Shown here piece by piece: positions 2,090 through 48,577 of a DNA stretch of 64,000 nt; the first letter of the stretch is position 1, and every line of letters begins with the position of its first letter. The position numbers and the translations under genes are program-made. Location: NCBI GenBank assembly GCA_019321725.1, contig CM033124.1:9672001-9736000 (forward strand), read 5' to 3'. Origin of the DNA: Paulownia fortunei (Eukaryota > Streptophyta > Magnoliopsida > Lamiales > Paulowniaceae). Under the pieces are notes generated by a model. The model did not search any database, was not told the DNA's origin, and saw nothing but the letters and a program-made list of their open reading frames with translations.

Positions 2090-2643
2090 ATCGGTTTATT
2101 ACAAAATTTAAGAAAAAAATATATGATTAATGTGAATTGAGTGAATTTAAAATTATAGATAAAATGTGATTGAGTCCACACTTCCAAAGGCGTTAACTCA
2201 ATTCAAGCCTCTTTAAATTTTTATTTATTTTTATTAAGAGATTGAAGGCGCGGATTGAATCATGCCTTCACCTTTTTATTTTATATATTCCCCTTTAAAA
2301 AGGTGAAGGCGTGAATTTTTTTTTCGTGTTTTTAATTTTAATTTTATTTTTTAAGTGAAAAATATGATGATATTATATTAATGGACGATGTGTTATGATG
2401 ATATGAGGATTTTTCACCGACCTAAAATAATATGGTGATGCTTAGGATGCTGGTTATGTGCATATATTATGTAAATGTGACACTAAAGAGTAATGACATT
2501 TACAGTCGATAAATTGATTGAACCGAACCAAAATAAAAAATTCAGTACATATTGAAATTTAATCGAAAATATTTAATTCAGTATTCGTTAAAAAATTTAT
2601 GATAATTTAATTTTTTATTTTTGGTTTATCGAACTGCACCGAA
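2090..2643. repeat. Left part of split fold-back element
   Basis: This is the outer left arm of a long inverted repeat whose partner lies at about 13760-14360. Matching blocks, read as reverse complements, include the GGTGAAGG blocks (about 2268 and 2300 against 14090 and 14145) with the adjoining GATTCAAT, the block around 2370-2420 against 13985-14040, and the stretch ending GAACTGCACCGAA at 2643 against TTCGGT-type sequence near 13770-13800. The arm is cut at 2643 by the gypsy retrotransposon and continues at 13081. The outermost end near 2090 is approximate. It is non-coding. Confidence 0.65.
2639..2643. repeat. Target-site duplication (left) of gypsy element
   Basis: CCGAA lies directly left of the LTR and pairs with CCAAA at 13081-13085 (4 of 5 bases). 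Removing the retrotransposon and one copy restores GCACCAAATACC, which matches GTACCAAATACC in the opposite arm of the fold-back element. That independently supports this as the insertion site. Confidence 0.75.
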
Positions 2644-3974
2644 TGCTTCAACTTTAGGGTTACAAACTCAAGTGCAAGTTGTGTCAGGTAATAAATTTCT
2701 TGTGAGTTCGAGATCGATCTACAAGGAAGTTGTTTGAAAAATTCAGCATTATATTTCTAAAAAAAAGATATGGGCTTAATTTGATTTGGAATGTATATAA
2801 AAAATATTGTATGCTATAACTAAAAAAAATCAAAGTAATAAAATATTGAGGATTAGGGATTCGCTCTTGAGTTTTGGATAGGGGAATAATTATTTATTAT
2901 TTTTATCTCTTTTAATTGCCACTATTGGAATCCATATATCAAATAGCTCATGTACTAAGAAAATCATGATATTGTCTTACTATTTGCAAATAATCTCTTA
3001 ACGACAACACTTGTATATGAGATCAAATATTTATGCACATATTTCTTTACAACAAATCAAGGTTCACATTAATGATTGATGTAGTAAAACCAAACATCTA
3101 GCTAAATGAACCCAATTATTTATTGTGCTACTAGTAATACATAAATCAAAAATCACCACAAAACAAGAAGGGTTTATATAAAAAATTAAACAATAATACA
3201 ACAAACTCAAACATTTTCTACCCTTATAACTATTCATTTTCCTCCATCAAGAGGTTCACCCTTTTTCCTCAACAAAATAAAATTTAGAAAGACATAAAAA
3301 AAGTAAAAAAAAAATAAAAATAGAAGAGAAACTAGAAAATACATTTCTATTACTACTAAAAAAAACTTACACTATTACTAGAATTTGGCTGTCGGATGAG
3401 GGAGATATGGTCAAATTACCGAATCATGTTTAAGAGTCATCCTTCAACATTAGTAGTGTATTGAAACATATTTATTAACTATTTTTATATATTTTCTCAC
3501 CATCTTGTTTTCAGCAAACTTGTTTATCTATCTCTTACATATAACATATCCAAATTTCATTCTAAAAACATTTCTGGTTTAAAAAATATGACCCAATTGG
3601 TAAAATAAGTCAGGATTGAGCTTAACTCTCATTCGAATTTTTTATAATTTATTTTATACAACCACTTATAATCCAACTTTTTTTATCTTTACACATTTAG
3701 TATGAGATCCAAAATTTACATGAACTTATAAAAGAATAACTTAGCAATCCATAACCTCAAGAATTAATACAAAATCATTTCATTATTAAAAGTTACGCCA
3801 GTTTCTTTAAAACCTACACAAAAGAATATAGAACTTTTTAATCTCATTTTTTAAGTTGATTTCTCATTTTATTCCTAAAATACAAAATACTTTAATTGGG
3901 AGTTCTAATGATAATTTCAAAGTGAAAAAATTTATATAAATTCTAATTAATTGTACACTTTTAAATGCTCATCA
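2644..3974 (-). repeat. 3' LTR of gypsy element
   Basis: It is a direct repeat of 11437-13080, readable from TGCTTCAACTTTAGGGTTAC to TTAAATGCTCATCA. Shared blocks include GTATGCTATAACTAAAAAAA, GAGTTTTGGATAG, GGCTGTCGGATGA and ATTCTAATTAATTG. It is about 300 bp shorter than the other LTR because the equivalent of about 12211-12509 is missing near 3383. The two LTRs differ at many positions by eye, so the insertion is old. Confidence 0.85.
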
Positions 3975-3986
3975 CACCCCCAACTA
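3975..3986 (-). promoter_or_regulatory. Polypurine tract next to the 3' LTR
   Basis: On the minus strand the sequence abutting the LTR reads GTAGTTGGGGGTG, a short purine-rich run in the position expected for the plus-strand DNA primer of an LTR retrotransposon. The position supports the LTR edge at 3974. Confidence 0.6.
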
Positions 3987-5304
3987 CTTTATTACCAGTC
4001 CCTAGTAATTATAGCATAATGAAATACAATACAAATAAAAATGAACATGACATGATGATCAGAATTTAAAAAAATTTTGTAAAATAGTATAACAATCACG
4101 AACAATCATTTGTCAGAAATCACAGATACTGTCGTATTTTTTTTCCAAAAGATGTTGTGCGTATGTGCACTAAGCCAACTTTTTATTCTACAGACCAAAA
4201 TACATATAACTTCAAAATCAATTATGAAAAAACCTCAACTCCATATCCTCGCAGGTAAGTGTTTGCCATTTAAATTGGTAAGGTGTTTATTCATCGAGTT
4301 AGAAAACAGTTAAAACACTCAGGAAAATGACTTAAATGATTTAGGACAAACATTCAAACTAAAATTGAGTATAAGATAGGTAGTTACAAAATTTGAAATA
4401 TATAGTCTGTCTTACCAAAATATGCCTCGAAATTTCATTGGTTAACCTAAAATGAAATGGTATTTTTTTGTTTTTTGTTTTTTTTTTTGTTTTTTTTTAA
4501 CAACATGACTCGCATGATAATAGAAGATCAATAGAAGGATTTATAATTATACTCACATTACTGGCTATAAAGCAAAATATTTCAATAAAAATAGATAACT
4601 ATACAGGTTTACCCAATTCATTTCTCCACATGCAAAGTAGACATAATTAAGCATCTCAAGTTGCTACGAAATCAATTCAAATGATTAATTAAAGTTCAGA
4701 ATGCTTGTTTTCTCAAACTCTCCACTTATTCACAAAAGATGTGTGAATATTAAAAAGTAAACACTTTAACATGGTCGAATTTTTCAATTATATATATCGC
4801 AATTAATCTTTCCACAAGGCATAGGATGTACATAAGATTAATTTCATTTTTTTTCTTATTTTTTTTTAAGATAGGACCCATGGACTTTAACAAAAAAAAA
4901 AAAGAATTGCAATTATGTTTTAACAATTTATAAATTTTAGTTAAAAACTTCACAAACATGCTATGTTATCAAAATAAAAATAAAAATGGGGGTATGTCTC
5001 AAGAGTGCCAAAAGATTACCCTTTACTCTGGTCAAGTCATGGTTTCAACTAATCCAAATGAAAACATGTTTGATTTTTTTTTAAAACTAGAAAAATACAT
5101 ATTGAACACATAAGATATAATATCAACTAACCCCTCAACCAACCTAATCTCGACATTGTCCCCAACATAAAAAATAGATAGAAAAGTAGAGTTTAAAAGA
5201 TATCACTAGAAATATAGGTTATTGAAAAAATAAAGCTGAAACAATACAAAATACACTATTAGTTGAAACCATTAAGGATAAATTTCACGAGTTGAGAGTC
5301 AAAT
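3987..5304. other. 3' internal region of gypsy element, no gene seen
   Basis: AT-rich sequence lies between the LOG-like copy and the 3' LTR. Plus-strand T-rich runs occur at about 4466-4499, 4848-4868 and 5073-5084. The last could be the complement of a poly(A) tail of a retrocopy, but this is not shown. No open frame here resembles a known protein. Confidence 0.5.
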
Positions 5305-5934
5305 TCATTTTGCATTTTTGACCACTTTCCTGTTGGACTAATCCACACAAGCTAAGGTTGGATCAGGTTTTGGCACATATGCTAGAAGTTGATCAATTAG
5401 TTGGCTAGGTATTGGAGCAGAAATAAGGATTCATCTTGCAGACAGTGAAATAAAATATTTTTTCATAGCATGATCAACAAAAGATAACAAACTATCATAG
5501 AAACTATTAACATTAAGAATATCTATAGATTTCTGGTGAATGTTGAGTTATGCCCAAAAGACAATTTGGAATAATTCTTCCAGCGTACCAAAACCACTAG
5601 GTAGAGTGATGAATATATCCACATTATTTAACATGTTAGGCATTTTATCCTGAACATGTGATGCTTTAAGTTCATCTCCGATTGTCATACATGTGATATT
5701 CTATATTGTTTAAGGTTTTAGGATAACTCTTAAAACTTTGACTCCTCCTACAAGAGCAGAAATAGCAACAATCTCCATTAACCCCAAACTGCCTTCTCCA
5801 TATATTAAATGAATTTTTCTTTTTGCTAATGTTCTATCAAGGTTATAGGTTGCCCCTATAAACTTATCATTTTTTCATGGATTAGATCCACAAAAAACAT
5901 AAATACAGTTGAACTTGTGAGTGGAAGAGAATTC
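5305..5934 (-). pseudogene. Intronless LOG-like (cytokinin riboside 5'-monophosphate phosphoribohydrolase) pseudogene
   Basis: One minus-strand frame of 210 codons, with no net frameshift, reads as a LOG family protein and ends at a stop at 5305-5307. LOG enzymes release active cytokinin bases from their ribotides in the cytosol. Visible blocks, in order, are YVFCGSNP (nucleotide-binding start, about 5898-5875), KRKIHLIYGEGSLGLMEIVA (the family's GGGSxGLMG region, with two Gly changed), TIGDELKASHVQDKMPNML, LPSGFGTLEELFQIVFWA (the family's PGGxGTxxE catalytic motif, first Gly changed to Ser), LNVNSFYDSLLSFVDHA, and a C-terminus with YVPKPDP. Six premature stops break the frame, so it is dead. 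The match covers about 203 codons, nearly the whole length of a LOG protein. The normal genes have several introns and none remain here, so the copy came through RNA. It lies inside the gypsy element in the same orientation, between integrase and 3' LTR. Confidence 0.85.
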
Positions 5935-5989
5935 TATTTTTTTTTCTTTTTGACAAAAATAGAGTGGGTACGGTGATTGAGGTGTGAAC

Positions 5990-6715
5990 AAGGAATGCAT
6001 TTATTACAAGTTTTTTTCTTTTGTTAGAAAGTTTGAAAATAAGGACGCACAAAATTTAAAAATTATCTACGTACACGTGAATGTATATGTAATTTGATTA
6101 TGACTCATATCTTCCTCTGATTTTATGTCTAATAATGACTTAAACGCCCTATGTGGGTCGAGGATATGCTTCCCACCTAATTTTCTTATAAATTAGCAAA
6201 CAATGTCTTTTAATGTCAGATTTTCAAAACTATAACGCTCATATTCATCCCAAAAGTGATTCCATAAATCAAGAATTGCAAGATGTACTAATCCACATGA
6301 ATGCTTCTCAAGAGTCAATATAATGTCATCTAAAGACTCCTTACTCAATCCATCCATAATGAATTGAATTTTATCTTCTCAATTTTTAAAAATCATTCAT
6401 AAGGGACGACACTTTGTGTTGCAAGTCCATCGAGTACATTTGTGATAAATTTGCATTTTTTTTGCCTTTCTTCTTTCTTTTTTAATATATGCTTTTACCA
6501 AAATCAGACATATATCTAGTAAGTAAGTTTGAAAACTCGCATGGAAACTCACCTGCTACTCTTACTTTTGCTTCAATTATCCATTGTATGTCCCCTAAAA
6601 TGCCCTTGTGTATAAGCATCCTTAATCTTTCAATCTTAGTTTTATAAATTTTCAAAATTACATTTTTAGGAAGAAAATGAAAATGCTTCTTGAGAGTTAG
6701 AAGAATGTCATCCAT
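5990..6715 (-). pseudogene. Two unrecognised decayed reading frames, mutually similar
   Basis: Minus-strand frames lie between the integrase and the LOG-like copy. One begins with Met at 6357 and runs about 115 codons with a single stop; its blocks include LDDIILTLEKHSCGLVHLAI and LDLWNHFWDEYERYSFENLT. The second starts with Met at 6715 and runs to 6482; it begins MDDILLTLKKHFHFLPKNV. Their shared DDI(I/L)LTL(E/K)KH start, with matching DNA (AATGCTTCT at about 6301 and 6681), suggests two copies of one module. I do not recognise the family. They could be an env-position frame of the retrotransposon or further captured host sequence. Confidence 0.4.
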
Positions 6716-6897
6716 TTTAAAAAGAACGAAAAAATAAAAAAGAGAGAAACTTTGTACAAAGATTTCAGTTATTTGAAAAACTGATAAGTCAGATTTTAAT
6801 AGCCCTGGAGTACCGTTATCCGCCACTTAATCAGGAAAAAAAAATAAAAAAAATAAAGCCTACAAAATAAATAAAGCTAGATAAAATAAGTATATAT

Positions 6898-6919
6898 ACA
6901 CACACACACACACACACAC
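6898..6919. repeat. (CA)n microsatellite
   Basis: A run of about eleven CA units follows a short TA run, inside the gypsy element just beyond the integrase 3' end. Confidence 0.9.
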
Positions 6920-6959
6920 TAATCATAACAAGGGTTAGAAAGAAAAAGAATTTTTTCTT

Positions 6960-7930
6960 GTGAAAATTGATTCTTTAGAAACGATTTGAGTTTTTGTCCA
7001 TTTACTTTAAATACATTACCATTTTTAGGATTCTCAATGTCAATCACACCATAAAGATATACCTCTTTTACAACAAAAGGACCACTCTACATTGATCTCA
7101 AATTTTTAGGAAACAAATGCAATCGAAAATTATAAAGCAAAATATTTTGATCAACCTCAAATATTTTTCTTGAAATTTTATTATCTTGAAAATCTTTGAT
7201 TCTTATGAATTTTAGAATCGCATATGCATCATTTCTCAATTTTTGAAGTTCATTGATTTACAATTTGCACAATTTTGAAGTTTTATCAAGGTTAAAGTTA
7301 AACATTTTAACTGTCCAATAAGCTTTATGTTCAAGTTCAACAGGTAAATGATAAAGTTTTTCATAAACTATTACATAAGAAGACATGCCTAATGATGTTT
7401 TGAAAGCAGTTCTATATTTCTAAAGTATATTGGTAAGTCTAAGAGACCAATCCTTGCGATTTGGGTTAACTGTCTTTTCCAAAATTTATTTTATTTTTCT
7501 ATTTGCAAGTTCAACTTGGCCATTTGTCTGAGGGTGATAAGGGATTGCAACTTTATGTATGATTTCATATTTCTTCATTAAAGTTCCAAAAACTTTATTA
7601 CAAAAATATTTTTCCCCATTATTGATAATGGATCAAGGAATTTTAAATCGACTTGAATTATTTTCTTTCAAAAATTTATCACTATTTTGTGATTATTATT
7701 TCGATAGAAAATTGTCTCGATCCAATTTGAGACATAATCTATAGCGATCAATATGTAAGTAAAACCAAATGATAATGAAAATGATCCCATGAAGTCAACA
7801 CCCCAACAATCAAAAATTTCAATCACTAAGATAGGGTGTAAGAGGATTATGCTTCGCTTTGAAATGGACCTTACTTTTGACAATTTTCACAATTTTTGCA
7901 GAAAGTGTAAGTGTCTTTGAAAAAACTTGG
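6960..7930 (-). pseudogene. Gypsy integrase remnant
   Basis: Minus-strand frames read as a Ty3/gypsy integrase. Near 7900-7880 there is a CENCQK-type zinc-domain remnant. Then comes GVDFMGSFSLSFGFTYILIA with the first catalytic Asp (about 7800-7740), then VAIPYHPQTNGQVELANRKI (about 7555-7490), which carries the Gln-rich loop and the catalytic Glu region. Next is a KDWSLRLTN block, then LPVELEHKAYW (about 7350-7310), and a C-terminal KVNGQKLKSFL block near 7010-6975. The spacing and wording are those of Athila/Tat-type plant elements. Stops occur throughout (for example after ANRKIK), so no enzyme can be made. The upstream linker to RNase H lies at 7931-8238 and is cut by the hAT MITE. Confidence 0.88.
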
Positions 7931-8149
7931 CCAATAAAATCTAAATTATAAGATCTTTGCAGCAGTTTTTTTTAGGTTTTTTGTTTTTGCTGAAAAGTGA
8001 CAACCACATGCTTCTGAATGATAAAATTTAACAATATTACCTCGTTCTTTATTGAATATGTATGGATCATCCCAATAAAAGTTTTCACCTTAGTCAAAAA
8101 TTTCTTTTTGTTTTGGGAGTTCCAATGCAATGGTATCACAAAATTAATA

Positions 8150-8157
8150 ATATCAGC
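8150..8157. repeat. 8-bp target-site duplication, left
   Basis: ATATCAGC is repeated exactly at 8686-8693 on the other side of the MITE. Joining the flanks with one copy restores a continuous minus-strand gypsy frame reading WFADIINFVIPLHW. Confidence 0.9.
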
Positions 8158-8685
8158 TAGGGGTGTACATAATTCGGTTAACCGATGAATTGAACCAAAA
8201 TTAAAATTTTGGTTCGCACCAAAATCGAATGGAACCAAAAATTTTGGTTCGATTTTTGGGTTTTTTTTTTAATTTTTTGATTTTCAGTTCGATTTTGATT
8301 TTTTTTAAATTCGGTTAACCGAACCGAATCGAAAACCAAATTAATATTTTTATATATTATTTTTATATTATATTTTATACTATTTTTTATTTTAAAATTT
8401 ATATTTTTATATTTATTATTTATTTTTATACTATTTTTTGTGTTTTTATCACTCATAATAAGTAAAAAACATATTTAAAATAATATTATTTAGTTTTTAT
8501 TTATTTATTATTTATTTTTAAAAAAATTTGGTTGACTAAAAATTGAACCGAAAAACCAAAATTTTTTTTGGTTAAAATCGAACCGAATTAATTCGGTTTT
8601 TGATTTTTAATTTTGACGAACCAAAATTCTGGTTAACCAAAATTTCAATTCGGTTTGGTTCGATTGAACCAAATATGCACCCCTA
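8158..8685. mobile_element. hAT-type MITE nested in gypsy pol
   Basis: A 528-bp non-coding element with terminal inverted repeats: TAGGGGTGTACATAATTCGG at the left and, reversed, TTAGGGGTGCATATTTGGTT (about position 8686) at the right. An exact 8-bp duplication ATATCAGC flanks it. TA(G)GGGTGT ends and 8-bp duplications are typical of the hAT superfamily. Both ends are rich in self-complementary GGTTAACC and GAACCGAA-type motifs, so each arm can also fold on itself. The middle is A/T-rich. The element interrupts the linker between RNase H and integrase, so it is younger than the retrotransposon. Open frames crossing it are shadows. Confidence 0.88.
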
Positions 8686-8693
8686 ATATCAGC
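8686..8693. repeat. 8-bp target-site duplication, right
   Basis: ATATCAGC, an exact copy of 8150-8157. Confidence 0.9.
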
Positions 8694-8794
8694 AAACCAA
8701 GATAAAATAAAAATATTAAATAGTTGTTCATGAGGAAAATTGTCATTAATGGATGTGGTTTGAAACGACTATTTAATTTTTATTAAATATTACA

Positions 8795-8880
8795 ATTAAG
8801 TCTTGACAAATGATCAGCCACAATATTTTCTTTCTTATCTCGAATCATAATGTTGATTCCTAGAGTAAAAAAATCCAAGA
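8795..8880 (-). pseudogene. C-terminal RNase H/linker tail of gypsy pol
   Basis: The minus strand reads WIFLL and, after a frameshift, IR(D)KKENIVADHLSRL. This is the characteristic end of the gypsy RNase H region (usually RDKKGxENxVADHLSRL). The preceding several hundred bases, where reverse transcriptase should be, give no recognisable RT motif, including the YxDD box. Confidence 0.75.
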
Positions 8881-9309
8881 AAGAGTATTTCAAATTAAAT
8901 GACAAAGTTTCAAATCAATCACGAGAGCTTTAATACTTGATGGAATAGACTGTATTGTTGATGATGAAATTTCTTCAAACCTTGGCTTTCAAATTTTTTT
9001 TTTAACCTACGAAAATTCAGAGAGATTATTATAGTGTGTCTTTTCACAAATACTTTCACTTTCAAAACAAGTCTCCAAAGAATCTAAAGAGTTAGTGGTA
9101 GTAAAGTATTCATGAATAAGTTCCTCAATTGAATCCATTTCATATACTTCAACATCTTATGTAGGTTGCTTACAAACATTAAATATATTTAGTTCCAAAA
9201 TCATATTTTCAAAAGATAACTTCAAAATTCCATTCCTACAATTAATCAAATCATTTGAAGTTGCAAGAAAAGGACGACCCAAAATGATTGAATCTATATA
9301 TGTGTATGT

Positions 9310-9620
9310 GTAACAGACTTTGTGTCCAAAATAATAAAATTTATTGGAAAGTAAAACTTATCAATTTGTACCAATACATCTTCTACTACTCCCTTTGAAA
9401 CTTTAATCAAACAACCAGGTAGTTGGATTACAACAGAAGTTATTTTAAATTCTTCCAAACCTCACTATTCATAAACTAAAAAAAGTAGAAGATTTACAGT
9501 AGCACCAAAATCAAACAAAACACGCTCTATTCTAGTGTTTCCTATGGTACATAAAATGGTTGGACAACCTGAATCTTTGTACTTGGGTGGATTGAATTGT
9601 TAAATGATTAAACTAATACT
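9310..9620 (-). pseudogene. Gypsy aspartic protease remnant
   Basis: The minus strand reads PPKYKDSGCPTILCTIGNTR (about 9600-9535), followed by RVLFDFGATVNLL with the catalytic Asp at 9510-9512 (a D-x-G-[AS]-[ST] retropepsin motif). Further on is VSKGVVEDVLVQIDKFYFP (about 9405-9345), a usual block after the active site. Stops separate the pieces. It belongs to the same gypsy element as gag on its 5' side. Confidence 0.82.
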
Positions 9621-10279
9621 TTCAGTTAAAAATATCTTCTTTTGTACATAATGTTTTCTTTTGATTGTACACAAATCTTTCAAAAATTTGGCATAAAATG
9701 AAACTTGCTTGATTGCATCCAATAATGGAATATTAATCTTGACTTATTTAAAAATTTCAAAGATTTCAGCTTTTAAGTTCAATTTCTAAGTTAGTTGCAA
9801 TCTTTGAAAAAAGGGTGTTGGAGGTAAATATTTTTTTTTTCATCATTTTTAAACTTACCTTAATCAAACTTACATTTATCGTCAAGACTATTTTCATTTT
9901 TCATTTCTAAAGGTGGATTATAAACTTTCTCCTTGGGATAAATAGTCTTATCAATAACTTTTTCATTCTGAAGAGTTGTGACCGAAGTAGCATCATTGAT
10001 TGAATTTTCACCTGAAGAAGAAACATGACACTGAGTGAAAAAATGAGGTTAAGGTTGAGCTGGAAACTTACCTTTTTCCTGAGTGTGCAAAGAGACGATT
10101 AATATTAAAAGTGTATTTTTGATCTCATTGATGGCTTGTGAAGTTTGAACACTGATGTTTGTTTGTTCATGCATAAATGCTTGTAAAGTTTTCTCAAGGG
10201 ATTTTATATGTAGAGTTGGATACGAAGGAAAGTTTGATGGTTTTTGTGAATGTAGCGGTTGGGCATGATTATTATCTCG

Positions 10280-11226
10280 TCAATTAAAATTGAAATGATT
10301 TCTCCATTGTGGATTGTAAGTTTTGGAATATAGAGAATGAAAAGGCTTTTTGAATGTGTTCATGAAATTTGTTTGTATTGGAATGTTTGAACATTTATTG
10401 GTGGAGTACCACACAAGTTCACAATTATTACAAACTTCTTTCTCTTGCACATATTTGATTTTCTTTACTTTTTTAAATTCCATGACTTCAACTTTTCTTG
10501 TTAAACTAGCAATCATAGCATTTACATCTTCTTTTTTACTAAGGTAATATTTTTCTTTATTGCTATTGACAAGATTGGATTTAATAGAACCTTCGAAAGA
10601 ATTAATACTATGTCATAATTGGGAGTTTTCTGTCAAATGCTTTAGATAGTTTAGGGTTTCATCATGTTCTTTATCAAAAAACTCATCATTACATATTATT
10701 TCAACAAATTATTTTATTTTAGGAGTTAAACCTTCATAAAAAAAACTAATTAAGCACCATTTTTTAAAACCATGATATGGGGATAAATTCAATATATCTT
10801 TAAATCTTTGCCAACATTGAAAGAAAGCTTCTTTAGAATTTTGAGAAAAATTTTCAATTTGTCTTTTCAAAGTATTAGTTTTATGAGTTGAAAAAACCTT
10901 TTTCAAAAATTCAGTTTATATTTCTTACTAAGTATCAATTGACCTAGGTTTTAAATAATTAAGCCAATTTTTTTACTTTATCTTAAAAAAAAGAAAGGAA
11001 ATAATTTGAGTTTAACAATTTCATTTATATAAGTTTGATCATCAAAAGTGGCATATACTTCATCATATTCTTTTAGATGCAAGTAAATGCTTTCAGAGTC
11101 TAAACTATGAAAATTAGAAAGTAAAATAATCATACCTGCCTTTAATCGAAAGTTATTTGCATTGAGAGGAAAAATGAAATAAAAAAGAGAAGAATTTCGA
11201 AGAGTTTGCAAGTAATAACGCATGGT
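10280..11226 (-). pseudogene. Gypsy gag remnant
   Basis: Minus-strand frames give the retrotransposon gag domain in pieces. They are FRLKAGMIILLSNFHSLDSE with LHLKEYDEVYATF (11223-10978), then KTNTLKRQIENF, FFQCWQRFKDILNLSPYHGF and FFYEGLTPK (10906-10709). A final frame (10516-10280) has a zinc-knuckle remnant CNNCELVWYSTNKC, in which the His of the C-x2-C-x4-H-x4-C pattern is Tyr, followed by a YNPQWRNH block. Several frameshifts and stops separate the blocks. Gag would form the virus-like particle of the retrotransposon. It lies directly downstream (minus strand) of the primer site and 5' LTR. Confidence 0.85.
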
Positions 11227-11412
11227 ACGGACCTGGTGGAAGTGCGTGGGGGTGACTCAAATAAATTTTCAAACAAAGTTTTAAAATTATTTTTAACTAA
11301 ACACCGAGAATTATGACTACTATACTATATAACCATATAATCATAAAGAAAATAAATACACAATATTTACAAAGAAAAAAAACATAAACATACCTGAATA
11401 CTTACCTTGCCT

Positions 11413-11430
11413 TCTCCGGCAACGAGGCCA
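11413..11430 (-). promoter_or_regulatory. Primer-binding site, tRNA-Asp type
   Basis: On the minus strand the site reads TGGCCTCGTTGCCGGAGA. It is complementary, with few mismatches, to the 3' end of plant tRNA-Asp (usual form TGGCGCCGTTGCCGGGGA). It sits six bases inside the 5' LTR edge, the normal position for priming first-strand cDNA. tRNA-Asp primers are typical of Athila/Tat-like and related plant gypsy elements. Confidence 0.85.
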
Positions 11431-11436
11431 AAAATT

Positions 11437-13080
11437 TGCTATAACTTTAAAGTTTTAAACTCAAGTACAGATTGTGTTAAGTAATAAATTTCTCATAAGT
11501 TTAAGGTCAATCCATATGAAAGTTGTCTAAAGAATTCAGGATTATAAATCTAAAAAAAAAAACAAAGATGGGCTTTATGTGATTTAGAATATGTAAAAAA
11601 TAATAATGTATGCTATAACTAAAAAAAAACAAAGTAATAAAACTATTTAGTATTAGGGATCCGCTTTTGAGTTTTGGATAGAGGAACAATTATTTATTCT
11701 TGTTACCTATTTTAATTGTCATTATTAGAATCCATACATAATGAAAGTTCTAATAGGAAGATGTTGTCAAATAGATCATACGATAAGGAAATCATGATAT
11801 TGTCTTACTATTTACAAATAATATCTTTACGCCAATACTTATTTATGGGATCAAGTATTTATACATACCTTTATTTACAACAAATTAAGGTTTCACATTA
11901 ACAGTTGGTGTAATAAAATCAAACGTCTAGCTAAATGAACCCAAGTATTTGTTGTGCCACTAGTGATACATAAATAAAAAATCACCACAAAATAAATAGG
12001 GTTTAGATAAAAAATTAAAATAATAATACAACACACTTAAATATTTTCTACCCTTATAATCGTTCATTTTCCTCCATTAAGAGGTTCACCACTTTTTATC
12101 AATAAAATAAAATTTAGAAAGATATAATAAAAGTAGGAAAGACTAAGAATAGAAGAGAAACTAGAGAATATATTTCTATTACTACTAAAATAAACTTACA
12201 TTACTACTAGACATTACTATTAGACAACTTAACTTAAAAGAATCCTCTATCCCCGAACTCTTACAACTTAATACATGGCATATTTATAGTGCTTGAAGTA
12301 TGGTAGAGGCTAAATATATGATAGAAAAGTTAAACAATCAAGTGGTATGCTAGTTGTTAAAAGCTAGTAAGTTGTTACACCAAATTCTTCAAATTTTCAA
12401 TTACCCAATTAAATTATATTTTTTGGCTAGATACATCTATATTTTGATGATGGCTAAAGAATAAAAGTTGTAAATTTTTATTTGCTGATATATTTTGATA
12501 TATTATTTGGCTGTCGGATGAAAAAAATATGGTCAAATTACTGAATCATATTCAAGGGTCATCCTTTAATATTAGCAGCACATTGCAGCATATTTATTAA
12601 CTAATTAGACATATTTTATCACCATCTTATCTTCATCAAACTTGTTTATCTATTTTTTGTGTATAACATATCCAAATTGTAGATCAAAAATATTTTAGTT
12701 TAAAAGATATGACTTAATTAGTAAAATAGGTCAGAATTGGACTTAACTTTAATGTGAATTTTTTATGATCCATTTTGTACAACTTCTTTGATCCTTATAC
12801 ATTTAGTATGAGATTCAAAGTGTGCATGAAAATTATATATGAATGACTTAGCAATCCATAGCCTCAATAATTAACTCAAAACTATTTGAGAATCAAAAGT
12901 TGCGTCAATTTTTCCAAAACCTGCACAAAAGAAGATAAAATTTTTTAATTTTATTTTTTTATGTTGATTTTCCATTTTATTCTTAAAACACAATACTTCA
13001 ATTGGGAATTCTAATAATAATTTCAAAGTGAAAATAATTATATAAATTCTAATTAATTGCACATTTTTAAATGTTCATCA
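11437..13080 (-). repeat. 5' LTR of gypsy element
   Basis: A 1644-bp direct repeat of 2644-3974. It starts (plus strand) TGCTATAACTTTAAAG and ends TTAAATGTTCATCA. It contains a segment at about 12211-12509 absent from the 3' LTR. On the minus strand it precedes the primer site, so it holds the element's promoter, but no TATA box could be assigned with confidence. Confidence 0.85.
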
Positions 13081-14360
13081 CCAAATACCTATTTATTATT
13101 CTTAAATTTAATTTTTATATACATATTTTTAAATCTATTATTTATATTGATACATCTTTTTGTGTTTTACTTAACAAACTAAAAAATAAAAAATATACAA
13201 TTATGATTTAATATTTATTTTTTAGAGTTTTTTCATTTTAAAAAAATCAATTAATCAAAATATCAAAAACAATTTGATAATAACTGAACCGAACTTATTA
13301 ACTCGACATAACATTTTGGCGTGTCGAAATTTCAGTTCAATTCAATTTTATTAGATGGAAATTCCTTCTAAAGAGGCATGAACTAGTAAAGTTTAACAAC
13401 ATGAGTTTCGTGAATTAAGTTGTCATCTTAATTTGGTATTTTATTTTGGAAAAAAATATTTTTGAATTATTTACTTTTTCAAAACATAATAAAAATTATT
13501 TTCTAAATCAAAAACTCAATATGTCAAAATATCATACCATATACCCAATTGAATAAATCAATTCCCTTTGGTTATTATCGACTTTTTTTTTGTATTTTGA
13601 TTAACTATTTTTTTTAAAAAATAAAAAATAGTTAAAAAATAAATAGTAAAATCATAATTGTATTTTTATTTTTTATTTATCATTTATAAATAAAAAATAC
13701 AATTAGTATAAAAGTAAATCACGGATAGAAAACTATGTATATAAAAATTAAATATAGGAATAACAATATGGTATTTGGTACGGTTCAGTAAACCAAAACA
13801 AAAAATCAAAACTGAACTTAATACTAGAGTTTTATAAAAAACTAAATTTGAATACCACATCAATATTTTTGGTAAGTAGTGATTTTTTTATTTCAATTTC
13901 GCATAGTCAGCTCATTGAACTATAAACACTCTTACTCTTTAGTGTCATAATATGCTGCATAATTTTATGATACACATAATTTGCCTCCAAAGATCCCCAT
14001 ATCACCATAAAATATTGCCCGATGCATACTTCTCATTTAAAAACCTAATTACAAAAATTAAAAAAAAAACTAAAAAATAGTAAAATAAAGGTGAAGGCTT
14101 CCCTTCATTTTTCTATAGGAAAAAAAAAATAAAATAAAATAAAAGGTGAAGGTGTTGATTCAATACATCTCTTCAATATTTTACTGAAAAAAAAATTGAA
14201 TATGATTTGAAGGAGTTTAAAATTTAGAAATGTGACATTAAAGAGTACAAGTGTCATCCGAATAAAATTATATTTCAGAAGGCGTAGAGTCATCCACATT
14301 TAACCAAAATTTTAAACTCCTTCAAATCACCAAAAAATTTCTTAAATTTTTTGATAAATT
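13081..14360. repeat. Right part of split fold-back element
   Basis: It begins with CCAAA, the second copy of the gypsy target duplication. 13081 to about 13300 continues the left arm, pairing as an inverted repeat with about 13560-13780: the stretch ACCAAATACC...TTTAATTTTTATATACATA and the ACAATTATGATTTA block occur on both strands. 13560-14360 is the right arm, which pairs outward with 2090-2643. Rejoined, the element is about 1.8 kb, nearly all inverted repeat, with a short loop near 13300-13560. Outer ends are approximate and no target duplication was identified. There is no coding capacity. Confidence 0.65.
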
Positions 14361-23943: not shown

Positions 23944-26505
23944 TCAATCAACTTCCTCAATCTTGGGGCCTGCACTGCTGCCACCAGAAGAGGGGCCATC
24001 TTCATCCACGCCTCCAGCCATGTCGGCACCACCAGCACCCTGGTACATCTTTGCAATGATTGGGTTGCAAATGCTCTCAAGCTCTTTCATCTTATCTTCA
24101 AATTCATCAGCCTCAGCGAGCTGGTTACCATCCAACCATTGAACAGCCGACTCAATAGCATCCTCAATTTTCTTCTTGTCAGCTGGCGGAAGCTTGGAAG
24201 CAATCTTCTCATCCTTTATCGTGTTCCTCATGTTGTAGGCGTAATTCTCCAGCTCATTTTTGGCCTCAACCTTCTTTTTGTGTTCCTCATCCTCAGACTT
24301 GTACTTCTCAGCTTCTTGTACCATCTTCTCGATCTCTTCCTTCGACAGCCTACCCTTATCATTGGTTATGGTAATTTTATTCTTCTGACCGGTTGTCTTG
24401 TCCTCAGCTGAGACGTTCAAGATACCATTGGCATCAATGTCAAAGCAAACATTGATCTGAGGAACACCCCTGGGTGCTGGAGGAATACCAGTGAGCTCAA
24501 ATTTTCCAAGCAGATTGTTATCTCTCGTTCTGGTTCTTTCACCTTCATAAACCTGAATCAACACGCCCGGCTGGTTGTCCGAGTATGTGGAGAACACTTG
24601 CTCCTTCTTGGTAGGAATAGTTGTATTCCTTGGAATCAAGACAGTCATGACACCTCCAGCTGTCTCCAAACCAAGAGACAAAGGCGTAACATCCAAAAGA
24701 AGAAGATCCTGCACCTTCTCATTGCCTTCACCACTCAAGATTGCTGCTTGTACCGCAGCTCCATAGGCAACAGCTTCATCAGGGTTAATGCTCTTGCATA
24801 ACTCCTTACCGTTGAAGAAATCCTGCAGTAGTTGTTGAACCTTTGGAATCCTAGTTGAGCCACCAACAAGGACAACATCGTGGACACTGCTTTTGTCCAT
24901 CTTTGCGTCCCTCAAGCACTTCTCAACGGGCTCCATGCACTTTCTAAACAAATCCATGTTAAGTTCCTCAAATCTAGCACGAGTAATGGTAGAGTAGAAA
25001 TCAATACCCTCATACAAAGAATCAATTTCAATGGTTGTTTGGGCAGTTGACGAGAGAGTTCTCTTCGCCCTTTCACAAGCAGTCCTTAATCTCCTTAGAG
25101 CTCTGGGGTTCCCACTAATATCCTTCTTGTGTTTCCTCTTGAACTCCTGAACAAAGTGATTCACCATTCTGTTATCAAAGTCCTCTCCTCCAAGGTGAGT
25201 ATCACCCGCGGTCGCCTTGACTTCAAAGATGCCCTCCTCAATAGTGAGAAGTGAGACATCAAAAGTACCACCACCAAGATCGAAAATAAGCACATTCTTC
25301 TCACCAGCACTGCTCACCTTTTTGTCAAGACCATATGCAATGGCTGCAGCAGTGGGTTCATTAATGATGCGCATAACATTAAGACCAGCGATAACTCCAG
25401 CATCCTTAGTGGCCTGACGCTGAGAGTCATTGAAGTATGCAGGCACCGTCACAACAGCATTCTTCACTGTCAATCCAAGGTATGCCTCAGCAATCTCCTT
25501 CATCTTAATGAGGACCATGGAAGAGATCTCCTCAGCAGAAAATTGTTTCTCCTCACCTTTGTAGGATACTACAATCATGGGCTTGTCACCAGGCCCTGGA
25601 ATAACCTTGAAAGGCCAGAGTTTCATGTCACTCTGGACAGACGGGTCACTGAATCTTCTACCAATCAACCGCTTGGCATCTGCGTCACAAAGCAAACACC
25701 AGTAAGCAACTTGACTACCATAACAGGCATTAAGCACAAGACACCAATCACAGAAATAAATACTATTGTTTCAAAGAATTAAACCCTGCAGTCTATAAGA
25801 ATATAAGTCATAATTTGTTCAGAATCTAATAAATAAGATACAATTCAATAAACATTTCACTCAATCACCATAGAATTTTGTGCACAGCCACAGAAAAAGA
25901 GCTAGCTTAAACCTTGCAACAGGAGGCAATTCAATGGTAATTCAATCATCAGTAATATAATCCTAATAGCATTATCATATTTTTTATGCACCAACCACTT
26001 CCGCAATTTTTTTAATAAAACCACACCCTTTCCCTTAGATTAAATGAAGAAACCAGTAAACAAGAATAATACAGAGTTAACAATTCCAAAACATGAGATA
26101 ACCCTCCAAGTCGCATAACAAAATTCAAAAAGGAGATGTCACTAAAACAAGAAACATTGAAGTAAACACAAAAGATATTGAACTAAACAGTGCCGTAAAG
26201 ATCATAAAGTCCCACGAAACAAATTCAGCTACAATCACGAAAATCATCAGCAAAAAAGCGGGTACAGAAAAAAATAAAAATAAAAACTCACCAAAGACAG
26301 TGTTGGTGGGGTTCATGGCGACCTGGTTCTTGGCGGCGTCGCCGATGAGACGCTCAGTGTCGGTGAAAGCCACATAAGACGGCGTCGTACGGTTGCCCTG
26401 ATCATTGGCTATAATCTCAACGCGGTCATGCTGCCACACTCCCACGCATGAATATGTGGTTCCCAAATCGATCCCAATCGCGGGTCCTTCGCCCTTTCCA
26501 GCCAT
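23944..26505 (-). CDS. HSC70: Cytosolic heat shock cognate 70 kDa protein (HSC70), two exons
   Basis: Spliced from 26505-26292 (exon 1) and 25679-23944 (exon 2), 1950 nt, 649 residues. The intron (26291-25680, 612 bp) is GT-AG and splits the codon of Asp72, the known intron position of plant cytosolic HSC70 genes. It is an ATP-driven chaperone of cytosol and nucleus that binds unfolded clients with J-protein and nucleotide-exchange partners. Visible HSP70 signatures are IDLGTTYS (residues 12-19), [14 protein letters not shown] (about 200), [16 protein letters not shown] (about 340), the interdomain linker [16 protein letters not shown] (about 390), and the C-terminal GPKIEEVD, the EEVD tail that binds TPR co-chaperones and marks a cytosolic form. 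There is no signal or transit peptide. The length matches the family. No break or missing key residue was seen; I judge it functional. Whether it is constitutive or heat-induced cannot be told from the protein. Confidence 0.97.
25680..26291 (-). other. HSC70 intron
   Basis: Donor GGTGAG... at 26291, acceptor ...GACGCAG ending at 25680, phase 1. Reading into it from either side gives false extensions of the exon frames. It is AT-rich with no internal feature. Confidence 0.95.
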
Positions 26506-45200: not shown

Positions 45201-47961
45201 ACTTAATTAACTATAGAAAGTAGACGTTGCAAATAATGCAAGAAAGAAAGTAAAGCAATAAAAATGCAACTGAATGGCAAAAATATTTTAAAAAAAAAAA
45301 ACACAAACTATCCAAGGTTATTCAATTTAATCATCAGAAACTAATAAACACGATTTCAATAATACTCTTTGATCCTTCATTAAACAATAGTCACATTCAT
45401 ATCAATATAATCAATTTACAACTCTTCCAAAAATAAATCAATCCAACGTATAGACAAGGAAAACTAAGTTCCTAAATGTGGAATTATATAACATGAATAG
45501 TTAGAAAGCAACTGGCACAAATTAGAAAGAGTAAAATCTTAAATAAAGAGAGTTTGATGTAATACCATGAAATATTCAAACAAGTTTTTGAATATATCAG
45601 TACTTGTCTAGCAGTTATGGACAAGGGGCTAGGCGACACCGTAGGCCACCCCCCTCCCCCCCCCCCCCCAAAAAAAAAAAAAAAAGAAGAATTGTAAGAC
45701 ACTATAAGTACATACATACATACACATATATAAATTTATACATATATATGTATGTGAATATGAGTTATTGTATTGTTTGGTCCCTTCATTCAATTACAAC
45801 TCTTCTCAAATTTAAATTGCGTCCAAATAACATTTTAAAATTAATGTTGTAATGATTTTTAAAATAAATGCTCTAAAATATTTCAAAAGCTTGGAATAAA
45901 TATTAAATAATAGGCCTATAAGTTTCAAATTTATTCAATCTATAAAGAGTAGTGAAACATATATTATACAATTTTTTATGCTCTCTTAGTTCACCTTAAG
46001 CTATAAAAAATTGCAAAAAAGAAACAATGGAACTGTTTACTTATACACTATACTGTACAACCAAATAAATGTGACAAAAAAATTGCTCTACAAAATTGGT
46101 TGATTAATCAAGAGAAAAATTAAATAAAACTTAATAAAATCCATTATAGATAAATTTTATGTTATCAAAAAGCACTGTTCACTCAAATAATAAGTATGTA
46201 CATATATATATTTGAAGCATTAATAAAACAATTTAAATTTAATATATTTTTTTACTGAAAGTCAGTTTTGGTAATATCTTTTGTTATCTTTATGTGTCCA
46301 TCCAAATCGAAATTGATTGATATTCGATTTTTGTAAAGATTGCCGAAACTTTCTTGCTAATAATAGCAACTTAGCCTCCCCAAGATTTCAATTCTGGATC
46401 CATCCCTGATGACCAGAGTGTATGTTTATCTATATCGATATAATATTTAAATACAAATGCTACAAGTTTTAGGGGTAGCCACAGCCACTTACTGCCAGCC
46501 CCAGCCCCACTTTCTTGCTAATAATAGCAACTTAGCCTCCCCAACATTTCAATTCTGGATCCATCCCTGATGACAAGAGTGTATGTTTATCTATATCGAT
46601 ATAATATTTAAATACAAATGCTACAACATATATATATTTGAAGCATTAATAAAACAATTTAAATTTAATATATTTTTTTACTGAAAGTCAGTTTTGGTAA
46701 TATCTTTTGTTATCTTTATGTGTCCATCCAAATCGAAATTGATTGATATTCGATTTTTGTAAAGATTGCCGAAACTTTCTTGCTAATAATAGCAACTTAG
46801 CCTCCCCAAGATTTCAATTCTGGATCCATCCCTGATGACCAGAGTGTATGTTTATCTATATCGATATAATATTTAAATACAAATGCTACAAGTTTTAGGG
46901 GTAGCCACAGCCACTTACTGCCAGCCCCAGCCCCACTTTCTTGCTAATAATAGCAACTTAGCCTCCCCAACATTTCAATTCTGGATCCATCCCTGATGAC
47001 AAGAGTGTATGTTTATCTATATCGATATAATATTTAAATACAAATGCTACAAGTTTTAGGGGTGGCCACAGCCACCCACCCCCACCCCCACCCCCACCCC
47101 CACCCCCACCCACCCAACTAGTTCACCCGTCCCATGTGATTGGTTGGTTTAGATCAGAAATACAAACAAGATCCATAGCTTGGCCTATTTTTAACTTCTC
47201 AATACTTTTATGCCCAGTACTTAACAACATAGCCCCTATAAGAAAATCCAAAATACAGTAAGTACTTATAACAAATTTAATTTTAGTTATACCTATTTTT
47301 ATATGGTATAAAGATCATTTACTTAGGATAAAAGCACTAAAGTATTCTAAAGTGCCCAAGGCATCACACAATTTACCCGAGTCAAATATTAAGCATTTCT
47401 CTGCGGATTCAAAAGACAGCACCAAACCTAAAACCATTATGATCCATTTGGACTTAAAATTTTCTAAAGGAAAAGGAAAAGCATTTAATGTAGTTTTAAT
47501 CACATTTTCCTTTTGAGCAAAACAAGCCATCAACTTTAAAAACTTTAGAACAAGTTGAGAACAACTGTAAAAAGGGACAAAATAGATTTACAAACTAACA
47601 CATGACTCTCATACTTAAATTTATACAAGCTTTTCTTTAGAGTTTTCCTTGCCAAAATCCGTAGCTTTAGTGAACTCCCACAGAAAAAAATAAATCACAA
47701 AAGAAGTAAATACAATGAAGTAAATGAATGGCCAATCGAGAGTGAAAAAAATACCATTTTGGTACCGTACTCGATGGCCTGCTCAGTGTGGAAAGTGCCA
47801 TTCTTTCCGGTGATGCCTTGGCAAATGACGCGGGTGTTCTTATCCACGAAGACGGCGGGCGGAGGCGGCAGCGATCCGAAATTGCGGTGTTGCTGGAGCT
47901 GCTTAGGGCACAATAGCCGCCATGACAAGTTGCCGATCAGTCTCCTGGCTTGACGGGCCAT
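33212..47961 (-). CDS. Succinate-CoA ligase alpha subunit, mitochondrial, seven exons
   Basis: Exons: 47961-47755, 45059-44850, 41719-41549, 39986-39863, 38605-38544, 35623-35542, 33348-33212. All introns are GT-AG; the joined frame is 993 nt, 330 residues. The enzyme interconverts succinyl-CoA and succinate with nucleotide phosphorylation in the TCA cycle in the mitochondrial matrix, paired with a beta subunit. Residues 1 to about 35 are Arg/Leu-rich without acidic residues, a mitochondrial presequence. Then come the CoA-binding Rossmann part ([16 protein letters not shown] and GGVTPGKGG), [66 protein letters not shown] and MGHAGAIVSGG with the phosphorylated His at about 283. An in-frame Met at 47985 would add eight residues; MARQARRLI at 47961 is preferred because it resembles other plant presequences as I recall them. 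It looks intact. Confidence 0.95.
33349..35541 (-). other. Ligase intron 6
   Basis: GT at 35541, AG at 33349, after a phase-1 split of the Ala codon following MGHAG. It contains a decayed MITE-like stretch at 33480-33860 (separate entry). The rest is unremarkable. Confidence 0.9.
33480..33860. mobile_element. Possible decayed hAT-type MITE in ligase intron 6
   Basis: Both halves are rich in CTCAAGCC, GAGCTCAAG, CTCGAGCTC and related motifs in opposite senses, as in the plant hAT MITEs whose ends read GTGTAAACGAGCCGAGC. Clear termini and target duplications are missing, so this is a weak call. Confidence 0.35.
35624..38543 (-). other. Ligase intron 5
   Basis: A 2920-bp phase-0 intron. It contains the 105-bp tandem duplication at 37929-38138. 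Between about 36690 and 37570 the minus strand has several longer-than-usual frames in pieces (for example [15 protein letters not shown] near 36950-36905, and [19 protein letters not shown] near 37440-37385). These may be remnants of an inserted coding element that I do not recognise. Confidence 0.7.
37929..38138. repeat. 105-bp tandem duplication in intron 5
   Basis: Units 37929-38033 and 38034-38138 start CATCAAGAAACTAGTG and end CTGAAT, with about nine differences. The unit is a multiple of three, so a plus-strand frame reads it as a 35-residue repeat. Nearly all codon differences change the amino acid, which argues against a protein. Confidence 0.9.
38606..39862 (-). other. Ligase intron 4
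   Basis: A 1257-bp phase-1 intron splitting a Gly codon (G/GT). No internal feature seen. Confidence 0.9.
39987..41548 (-). other. Ligase intron 3
   Basis: A 1562-bp phase-0 intron. It holds the 69-bp tandem duplication at 40406-40543 and an A-run at about 40559-40571. Confidence 0.9.
40406..40543. repeat. 69-bp tandem duplication in intron 3
   Basis: ACTTCATCACTTTCATGACT...CTGGTTTCTACATA occurs twice in tandem (40406-40474, 40475-40543) with only two visible differences, so the duplication is recent. Confidence 0.93.
41720..44849 (-). other. Ligase intron 2
   Basis: A 3130-bp phase-0 intron, the longest. No gene or defined transposon was recognised; open frames inside it are short and AT-rich. 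Confidence 0.85.
45649..45686. repeat. Poly(C)/poly(A) low-complexity tract
   Basis: CACCCCCCTC followed by a long C-run and then about eighteen A. Homopolymers of this kind are also a common place for sequencing-length errors. Confidence 0.9.
46201..47052. repeat. Higher-order tandem repeat: two 426-bp units, each with two 161-bp subunits
   Basis: Units 46201-46626 and 46627-47052 are nearly identical, both starting with CATATATATATTTGAAGC or a one-step variant. Within each unit the block beginning ACTTTCTTGCTAATAATAGC occurs twice 161 bp apart (46348 and 46509; 46774 and 46935). The first and second subunits can be told apart by AGATTTC versus ACATTTC and GACCAGAG versus GACAAGAG, and these differences are kept in both units. 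So the 161-bp duplication came first and the 426-bp duplication later. Confidence 0.93.
47067..47115. repeat. CCACCC-type minisatellite
   Basis: GCCACCCACCC followed by about five CCCCCA repeats ends near CACCCAACT. It begins where the last subunit reads GGGGTGGCCACAGCCAC, the equivalent of GGGGTAGCCACAGCCAC in the other subunits, so it seems to have grown out of that CA/CC-rich spot. Confidence 0.9.
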
Positions 47962-48237: not shown

Positions 48238-48577
48238 TAGGATGGCAGCATAGGTTTGGATTTTAAGAATTTAGATTCATTCTAGATTCGTTGGGTCGAT
48301 TAGATATGATAAATCTATTTTATAATTTTAAAAATATTAAAAATATAAAAAAAAATTAGATAACACTACTAAAAACATTTAAAAATATATTTTCTAAAAA
48401 TAATATTATATAAATACATATAAATTAAAATAAAAAATAAAAAAATAATTAATAGGATGAATTTGGAACGAATTTGAAAATAAAAAATCAAAACTCAACC
48501 CCAATTCGTTTACAAGTTTAAAAATCCGCATCAAATGGGACGGGTACGAATTTGAATTCACTCCAATATCATTTCTA
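48238..48577. mobile_element. hAT-type MITE
   Basis: A 340-bp non-coding element. Ends are TAGGATGGCAGCATAGG at the left and, reversed, TAGAAATGATATTGGAG at the right (imperfect inverted repeat). Flanks TATGAATT (48230-48237) and TATAAATT (48578-48585) form an 8-bp target duplication with one mismatch. The arms contain ATTCG-rich blocks in inverse sense. It resembles the element at 49550-50207 in its ends. Confidence 0.65.

Follow-up and report, generated by a model that had tools for sequence, protein, structure and literature searches.

In the window, by which we mean the whole 64,000-nucleotide stretch of Paulownia fortunei DNA analysed here, one finds the remains of a gene for the cytokinin-activating enzyme LOG. 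An earlier reading of the same stretch, made from its letters alone (hereafter the sequence-only reading), had described a single intronless frame of 630 nt with six premature stops, and this is what positions 5305-5934 of the minus strand contain: 210 codons, which the ORF reading shows to be interrupted by six stops and closed by a seventh at the end. The identity of the frame is equally well borne out, since its translation (stops written as X) matches the Pfam family PF03641 with an E-value of 1.6e-20 (74.1 bits, against a cut-off of 27), spans that domain from end to end (1-131 of 131), and finds AtLOG3 (2a33, E 7.2e-42) and AtLOG8 (1ydh, E 2.5e-38) among PDB sequences. The active-site motif reads PSGFGTLEE, one residue away from PGGxGTxxE. 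Less accurate was the view that this LOG copy is "nearly full-length" and reaches its natural C-terminus at 5305, because it is actually longer. Homology to relatives of 217 aa begins at 5937 (tblastn), where the ATG is now ATA, and the C-terminal tail continues beyond 5305 after a single-base deletion (the one late frameshift) as far as a stop codon read by eye at 5285-5287, so that the gene was originally full length, with the limits given in Table 1. A tblastn search with seven queries detected no further LOG copies within the 64-kb window.

The sequence-only reading had also placed LOG inside the LTRs of a gypsy element, on the sense strand between the integrase and the 3' LTR, and this holds, both LTRs being confirmed (Table 1). 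The element copy is a dead fossil, lacking RT and RNase H and carrying a 528-bp insertion, which from its inverted ends and 8-bp duplication we take to be a hAT-type MITE. Stretches related to this insertion lie at 13107-13247 and 13686-13821, beside the 5' LTR, and at 48395-48454, and all of these probably belong to one MITE-like family present at several places. An open stretch of 114 codons remains of the extra ORF, at 6482-6826. The K2P distance between the two LTRs is 0.188 over 1313 sites which, taking substitution rates of 0.7-1.3e-8 per site per year, would make the element roughly 7-13 million years old. Elsewhere in the window, a complex tandem duplication occupies 46200-47086 (two 300-bp copies, 100% identical at a spacing of 426 bp, with an inner 118-bp unit that occurs four times, 161 bp apart within each pair), and the longest of the 10 listed ORFs, of 597 codons, lies on the minus strand at 23944-25737.

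Table 1. Features of the LOG-carrying element and its borders, in coordinates of the window.
Feature	Coordinates	Strand	Remarks
Whole Ty3/gypsy element, old and defective	2644..13080	-	LTR pair, TG..CA ends, near-TSD
TSD, 3' side	2639..2643	.	CCGAA on the + strand
3' LTR	2644..3974	-	LTR-LTR comparison
Polypurine tract	3975..3984	-	limits approximate; read from sequence
LOG pseudogene, full length	5285..5937	-	ATA for ATG, six stops, 1-base deletion near C-terminus
Extra ORF, decayed	6183..6715	-	limits approximate; carlavirus-NABP-like in sister copies
Integrase remains	7000..8157	-	limits approximate; sister-locus alignment to about 7430, start read from sequence
528-bp insertion	8158..8685	-	inverted ends TAGGGGTG, 8-bp duplication GCTGATAT; sequence features
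Junction without RT and RNase H	8857..8908	-	lacks residues 834-1312 of the L039 gag-pol frame; tblastn with L039 frame
gag and protease remains, broken frames	8908..11357	-	tblastn with L039 gag-pol frame, residues 2-833
Primer binding site, decayed	11413..11430	-	younger copy L039 has TGGCGCCGTTGCCGGGGA there
5' LTR	11437..13080	-	LTR-LTR comparison
TSD, 5' side	13081..13085	.	CCAAA on the + strand; 4 of 5 bases same as CCGAA

The window copy has a great many relatives in the 509-Mb Paulownia fortunei assembly. Searching its DNA with the LOG segment, we obtained 2279 candidate places and scored 40 of them, namely the window and 39 others that are 85-86% identical to it over almost the whole segment. 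A protein search with P0003, a LOG of Paulownia fortunei, gave 4371, and LOG is free of stops in 93 of the 150 best-matching places that were scored, all at an identity of at least 85% (rows counted by hand); the flank just upstream of LOG gave 2377. LOG was present in all 37 sister loci examined (L002-L038), and in 32 of them it is adjoined by the integrase/extra-ORF piece of the window over more than half of the length of that piece, so that sister copies carrying LOG at the same junction, which the sequence-only reading had proposed to look for, do exist. More than half of the 3' non-coding piece of the window, by contrast, is common to only two of the 37, and the window therefore seems to be a member of an older subfamily. 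Four LOG places were fetched with long flanks, and three of these could be dated by their LTR pairs (K2P 0.0044, 0.0106 and 0.0208); all three have perfect TSDs (ATCAT, CTGAT, GCAAA) and all carry LOG, in agreement with the earlier suggestion that LOG was captured early enough to be spread with the element. The fourth (L043/L044) has a complex repeat pattern and carries no date; near its LOG copy are open frames that read as copia-like (L043:6342-7442, L044:4019-4872), probably the result of nested insertion. Across the family, then, LOG occupies the same place, is open in many copies and has spread with the element.

In L039, one of the dated copies, a single frame of 1418 aa encodes gag, protease, RT and RNase H and is followed by integrase, the extra ORF and LOG, whereas the gag-pol frames of L041 and L045 are broken. 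In L039/L040 the domains come in the order Retrotrans_gag, Asp_protease_2, RVT_1 and RT_RNaseH, then Integrase_H2C2 and rve, and the family is thus an LTR retrotransposon with the PR-RT-RH-IN order of Ty3/gypsy. Its primer binding site, TGGCGCCGTTGCCGGGGA in L039, is presumably the complement of the 3' end of tRNA-Asp, and a tRNA-Asp primer binding site is linked to Athila. Neither an additional RNase H (aRH) nor a chromodomain was matched in the L039 frames scanned, aRH being the mark of the Tat clade in a passage of PMC6317226. The Athila ORF-1 domain PF03078 was likewise not matched in these frames; the same passage describes it as not obligatory, being present in 16% of Athila elements. 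We regard the family as a non-chromovirus that may be Athila-like, judging by the primer site and the missing extra RNase H.

The extra ORF just upstream of LOG scores above the cut-off of PF01623 (20.9 bits) in four Paulownia copies (25.2, 25.8, 22.8 and 25.4 bits) and also in Orobanche gracilis, where it forms a single gene model with LOG (P0130, 23.7 bits). For PF05515 (Viral_NABP, cut-off 23) the Orobanche protein reaches 26.0 bits and three Paulownia copies 18.6, 17.7 and 15.5; the short L003 frame has no match to this profile, and the 114-aa piece left in the window has none in Pfam. The match to PF01623 is partial (about 33-72 of 91) and centred on a basic and cysteine-rich stretch, so that descent from a common ancestor with the viral proteins is possible, though unproven.

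LOG relatives of the same type, including those among the best 120 of 7998 matches, are annotated or predicted in Orobanche, Reevesia, Diplodiscus, Pterospermum, Populus, Xanthoceras and Acer. In Orobanche they form clusters of 244 and 328 member sequences, and in Reevesia dozens of such proteins are found among those best 120 of 7998. Besides P0130, element sequence accompanies LOG in Acer, where residues 25-211 of P0177 align at 50% identity with the gag-side stretch 404-596 of the L039 gag-pol frame and LOG then follows, and in Xanthoceras, where a gag-side piece of 44-48 aa lies between the two LOG domains of P0071 and P0072. Tandem LOG domains occur in four Xanthoceras gene models (P0071, P0072, P0073 and P0176). 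A search for longer proteins containing LOG gave 10 matches: P0176 and P0177, besides fusions of LOG to a methyltransferase (one) and to ABC transporters (seven, four of them named, fungal), and the fusions were set aside as irrelevant. In the case of Reevesia, Diplodiscus, Pterospermum and Populus, copy number or PMC9289625 leads us to infer the element context. A tree was built from 39 hand-picked rows, with AtLOG3 and AtLOG8 as its only host sequences, and one branch (support 98/93) parts these two from all 32 carried-type rows, element context being seen for a minority of the 32. One scan of viral contigs with P0003 gave no relatives.

P0003 as modelled by AlphaFold (mean pLDDT 74, the C-terminal tail being of low confidence) has AtLOG3 as its top Foldseek match (E 1.1e-20, TMt 0.90). 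From 136 relatives taken, we compared the 115 of 205-235 aa, many of which are near-copies from one genome: PGGxGTxxE is found in 96 and its exact form is missing in 19, a basic pair or similar stands within the last 16 residues of 107, and 81 end in LxLxL. This tail may be a nuclear signal plus an EAR-like motif.

Taken together, we consider it quite likely (with a probability of roughly 0.85) that this Ty3/gypsy family of high copy number carries LOG as an accessory gene, and that the window holds one of its old, dead copies. The gene order of the family is gag-PR-RT-RH, IN, extra ORF, LOG and 3' LTR. A plant LOG cDNA would have been taken up long ago, before the split of the sampled elements of Lamiales, Malvales, Sapindales and Malpighiales, unless elements have passed between these orders. 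Where the LTR is active, the element would make LOG enzyme, which in turn would free active cytokinin bases from riboside monophosphates in that cell, and such a local gain of cytokinin could favour cell division or a state permissive for the element. The neighbouring zinc-finger ORF may bind nucleic acid and oppose silencing in the manner of its carlavirus relatives, NABP-type proteins being described as silencing suppressors in a passage of PMC12172455. What looked like a single fossil thus becomes a testable system, in which one may ask whether cytokinin changes where the element is active and whether the enzyme is kept because it is useful to the element.

The sequence-only reading had suggested a dN/dS comparison among copies. 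We used 39 copies selected on resemblance in the upstream flank and not in LOG; a dN/dS of 0.24, obtained from copies ranked by protein similarity, was dropped as biased. The LOG frame is open in 13 of the 39, and in two the 701 bases fetched contain no recognisable LOG, which speaks against taking a need for LOG in cis for granted. Most of the breaks come from the loss of one base, several of them at positions hit more than once, and one of the 37 copies with a readable LOG has a stop by substitution. The recurring one-base deletions in L047-L085 (position 215 in six copies, 202 in three, 480 in three) may be assembly errors or inherited frameshifts. Relative to an existing copy, L009, the young set has 55 nonsynonymous and 18 synonymous changes found in one copy, plus the stop, and 17 and 13 found in several; three more nonsynonymous changes, present in at least half of the young copies and maybe L009's own, were counted as shared, against the reading we favour. 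The old copies (window, L002 and L008) add 66 and 17 private changes, plus six stops, and 22 and 20 shared ones. Pooled, private changes stand at 121:35 and shared changes at 42:33 (Fisher p 0.0011), although the contrast within the young set by itself is not significant (p 0.17). As the neutral expectation for this ratio is 2.1-2.7, the shared changes (1.3) fall below it and the private ones (3.5) above, which points to constraint on LOG while the lineage was replicating and to decay after insertion, a conclusion supported by a small sample. Since the private ratio exceeds the neutral range, the contrast may owe part of its sharpness to assembly errors or mutation bias, and parallel changes at hot sites could mimic shared ones.

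These counts bear most directly on the alternative that survives best, namely that LOG is hitch-hiking cargo, captured once and amplified with the family without benefit or selection. The small proportion of open frames and the non-significant contrast within the young set are what one would expect of such cargo; the relative scarcity of amino-acid changes among shared changes is not, and neither is the persistence of 217-aa frames, with their C-terminal tail, in relatives from several plant orders that are about 53-66% identical to P0003. We therefore regard cargo as unlikely.

Still less probable, in our view, is that a divergent host LOG subfamily (that of LOGL10 in Populus) has been copied into elements repeatedly. 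Annotations class some members as host genes, and the host sampling of our tree consists of two Arabidopsis LOGs, both of which leave this explanation some room, but the genomes of Paulownia, Reevesia and Orobanche each hold dozens to hundreds of copies, element sequence is adjacent or fused to LOG in Paulownia, Orobanche, Acer and Xanthoceras, and the carried-type LOGs form the one group described above. The annotation may itself mislead: the gene lists of Paulownia, Orobanche and Reevesia include carried-type LOGs, and some Populus members bear the name LOGL10, so that counts of LOG genes may be inflated, a warning for which the element context was seen in Paulownia and one Orobanche model, not in Reevesia or Populus.

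Finally, that a LINE-made retrocopy landed in the window element, or that transduction of a LOG mRNA was peculiar to this element, is refuted, despite the missing introns and an A-rich run immediately upstream of the start codon, by the 32 of 37 sister loci with the same segment and flank and by copies with LTR K2P of 0.004-0.021 that carry LOG between LTRs and TSDs of their own, and inspection by eye around the window LOG showed neither a LINE-type duplication nor a 3' poly(A). The idea of mRNA capture in the sequence-only reading stands in so far as LOG was taken up early enough to spread, but not in the form of a Paulownia LOG mRNA captured recently: the 150 rows scored in a search of the genome with AtLOG3 are long single-exon matches of 47-53% identity, which we take for element copies, and the carried LOGs group with those of other orders in a tree whose host side is just two Arabidopsis LOGs. 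At such divergence, small RNAs from the element LOG, suggested earlier as acting against the parent LOG gene, would be unlikely to do so.

An extension of the preferred reading, in which LOG is an accessory gene of the element, would make it half of a two-gene kit for handling the host, the other half being an RNA-virus-type zinc-finger protein that may counter silencing; we offer this tentatively and think it rather doubtful. As part of the same kit, the basic LOG tail ending in LxLxL may direct the enzyme to the nucleus and to corepressors. If all this were true, the element would raise the hormone level and lower the defence of the cells in which it replicates.

How do these elements compare with what is known? 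Like AtLOG3 and AtLOG8, the element LOGs have the LOG fold and the PGGxGTxxE motif, and they differ in having no introns, in their high copy number and in the LxLxL tail of most relatives. With the NABPs of carlaviruses and allexiviruses (PF01623, PF05515) the extra ORF shares a basic stretch and a zinc-finger region, whereas the profile is matched only in part, and PF05515 above its cut-off only in Orobanche. Steinbauerova et al. reportedly name, in their abstract, two Athila-like elements similar to LOGL4. A passage of PMC9289625, which cites that work and is in line with it, describes gypsy LTR consensus sequences from Citrus sinensis and C. clementina that contain a LOG/YgdH domain and, without the filter of that study, the domain also in those from Populus trichocarpa. 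Carriage of a LOG-type domain by Ty3/gypsy elements, as in Paulownia, is therefore already in print, whereas that passage gives no genome copy numbers, selection test or partner ORF, and neither Lamiales nor Malvales are among the plants that it names for it. In the literature on LOG-carrying elements we did not find copy numbers, a selection contrast or a carlavirus-like partner reported; what is new here is the scale, the selection contrast, the conserved basic/LxLxL tail and the viral-like partner ORF. The gypsy elements of orchids, as described in part of PMC9289625, offer a parallel with a different enzyme: there too a host-type enzyme, an m6A demethylase (2-ODD) confined to Phalaenopsis in that screen, is an extra ORF across element subfamilies, and the activity of the purified protein was demonstrated. 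Similar in architecture are the extra ORFs of Athila, which a passage of PMC7264820 places between pol and the 3' LTR, in the same position and orientation as those of Paulownia; these are described as env-like, whereas the Paulownia family has a zinc-finger, NABP-like ORF together with LOG.
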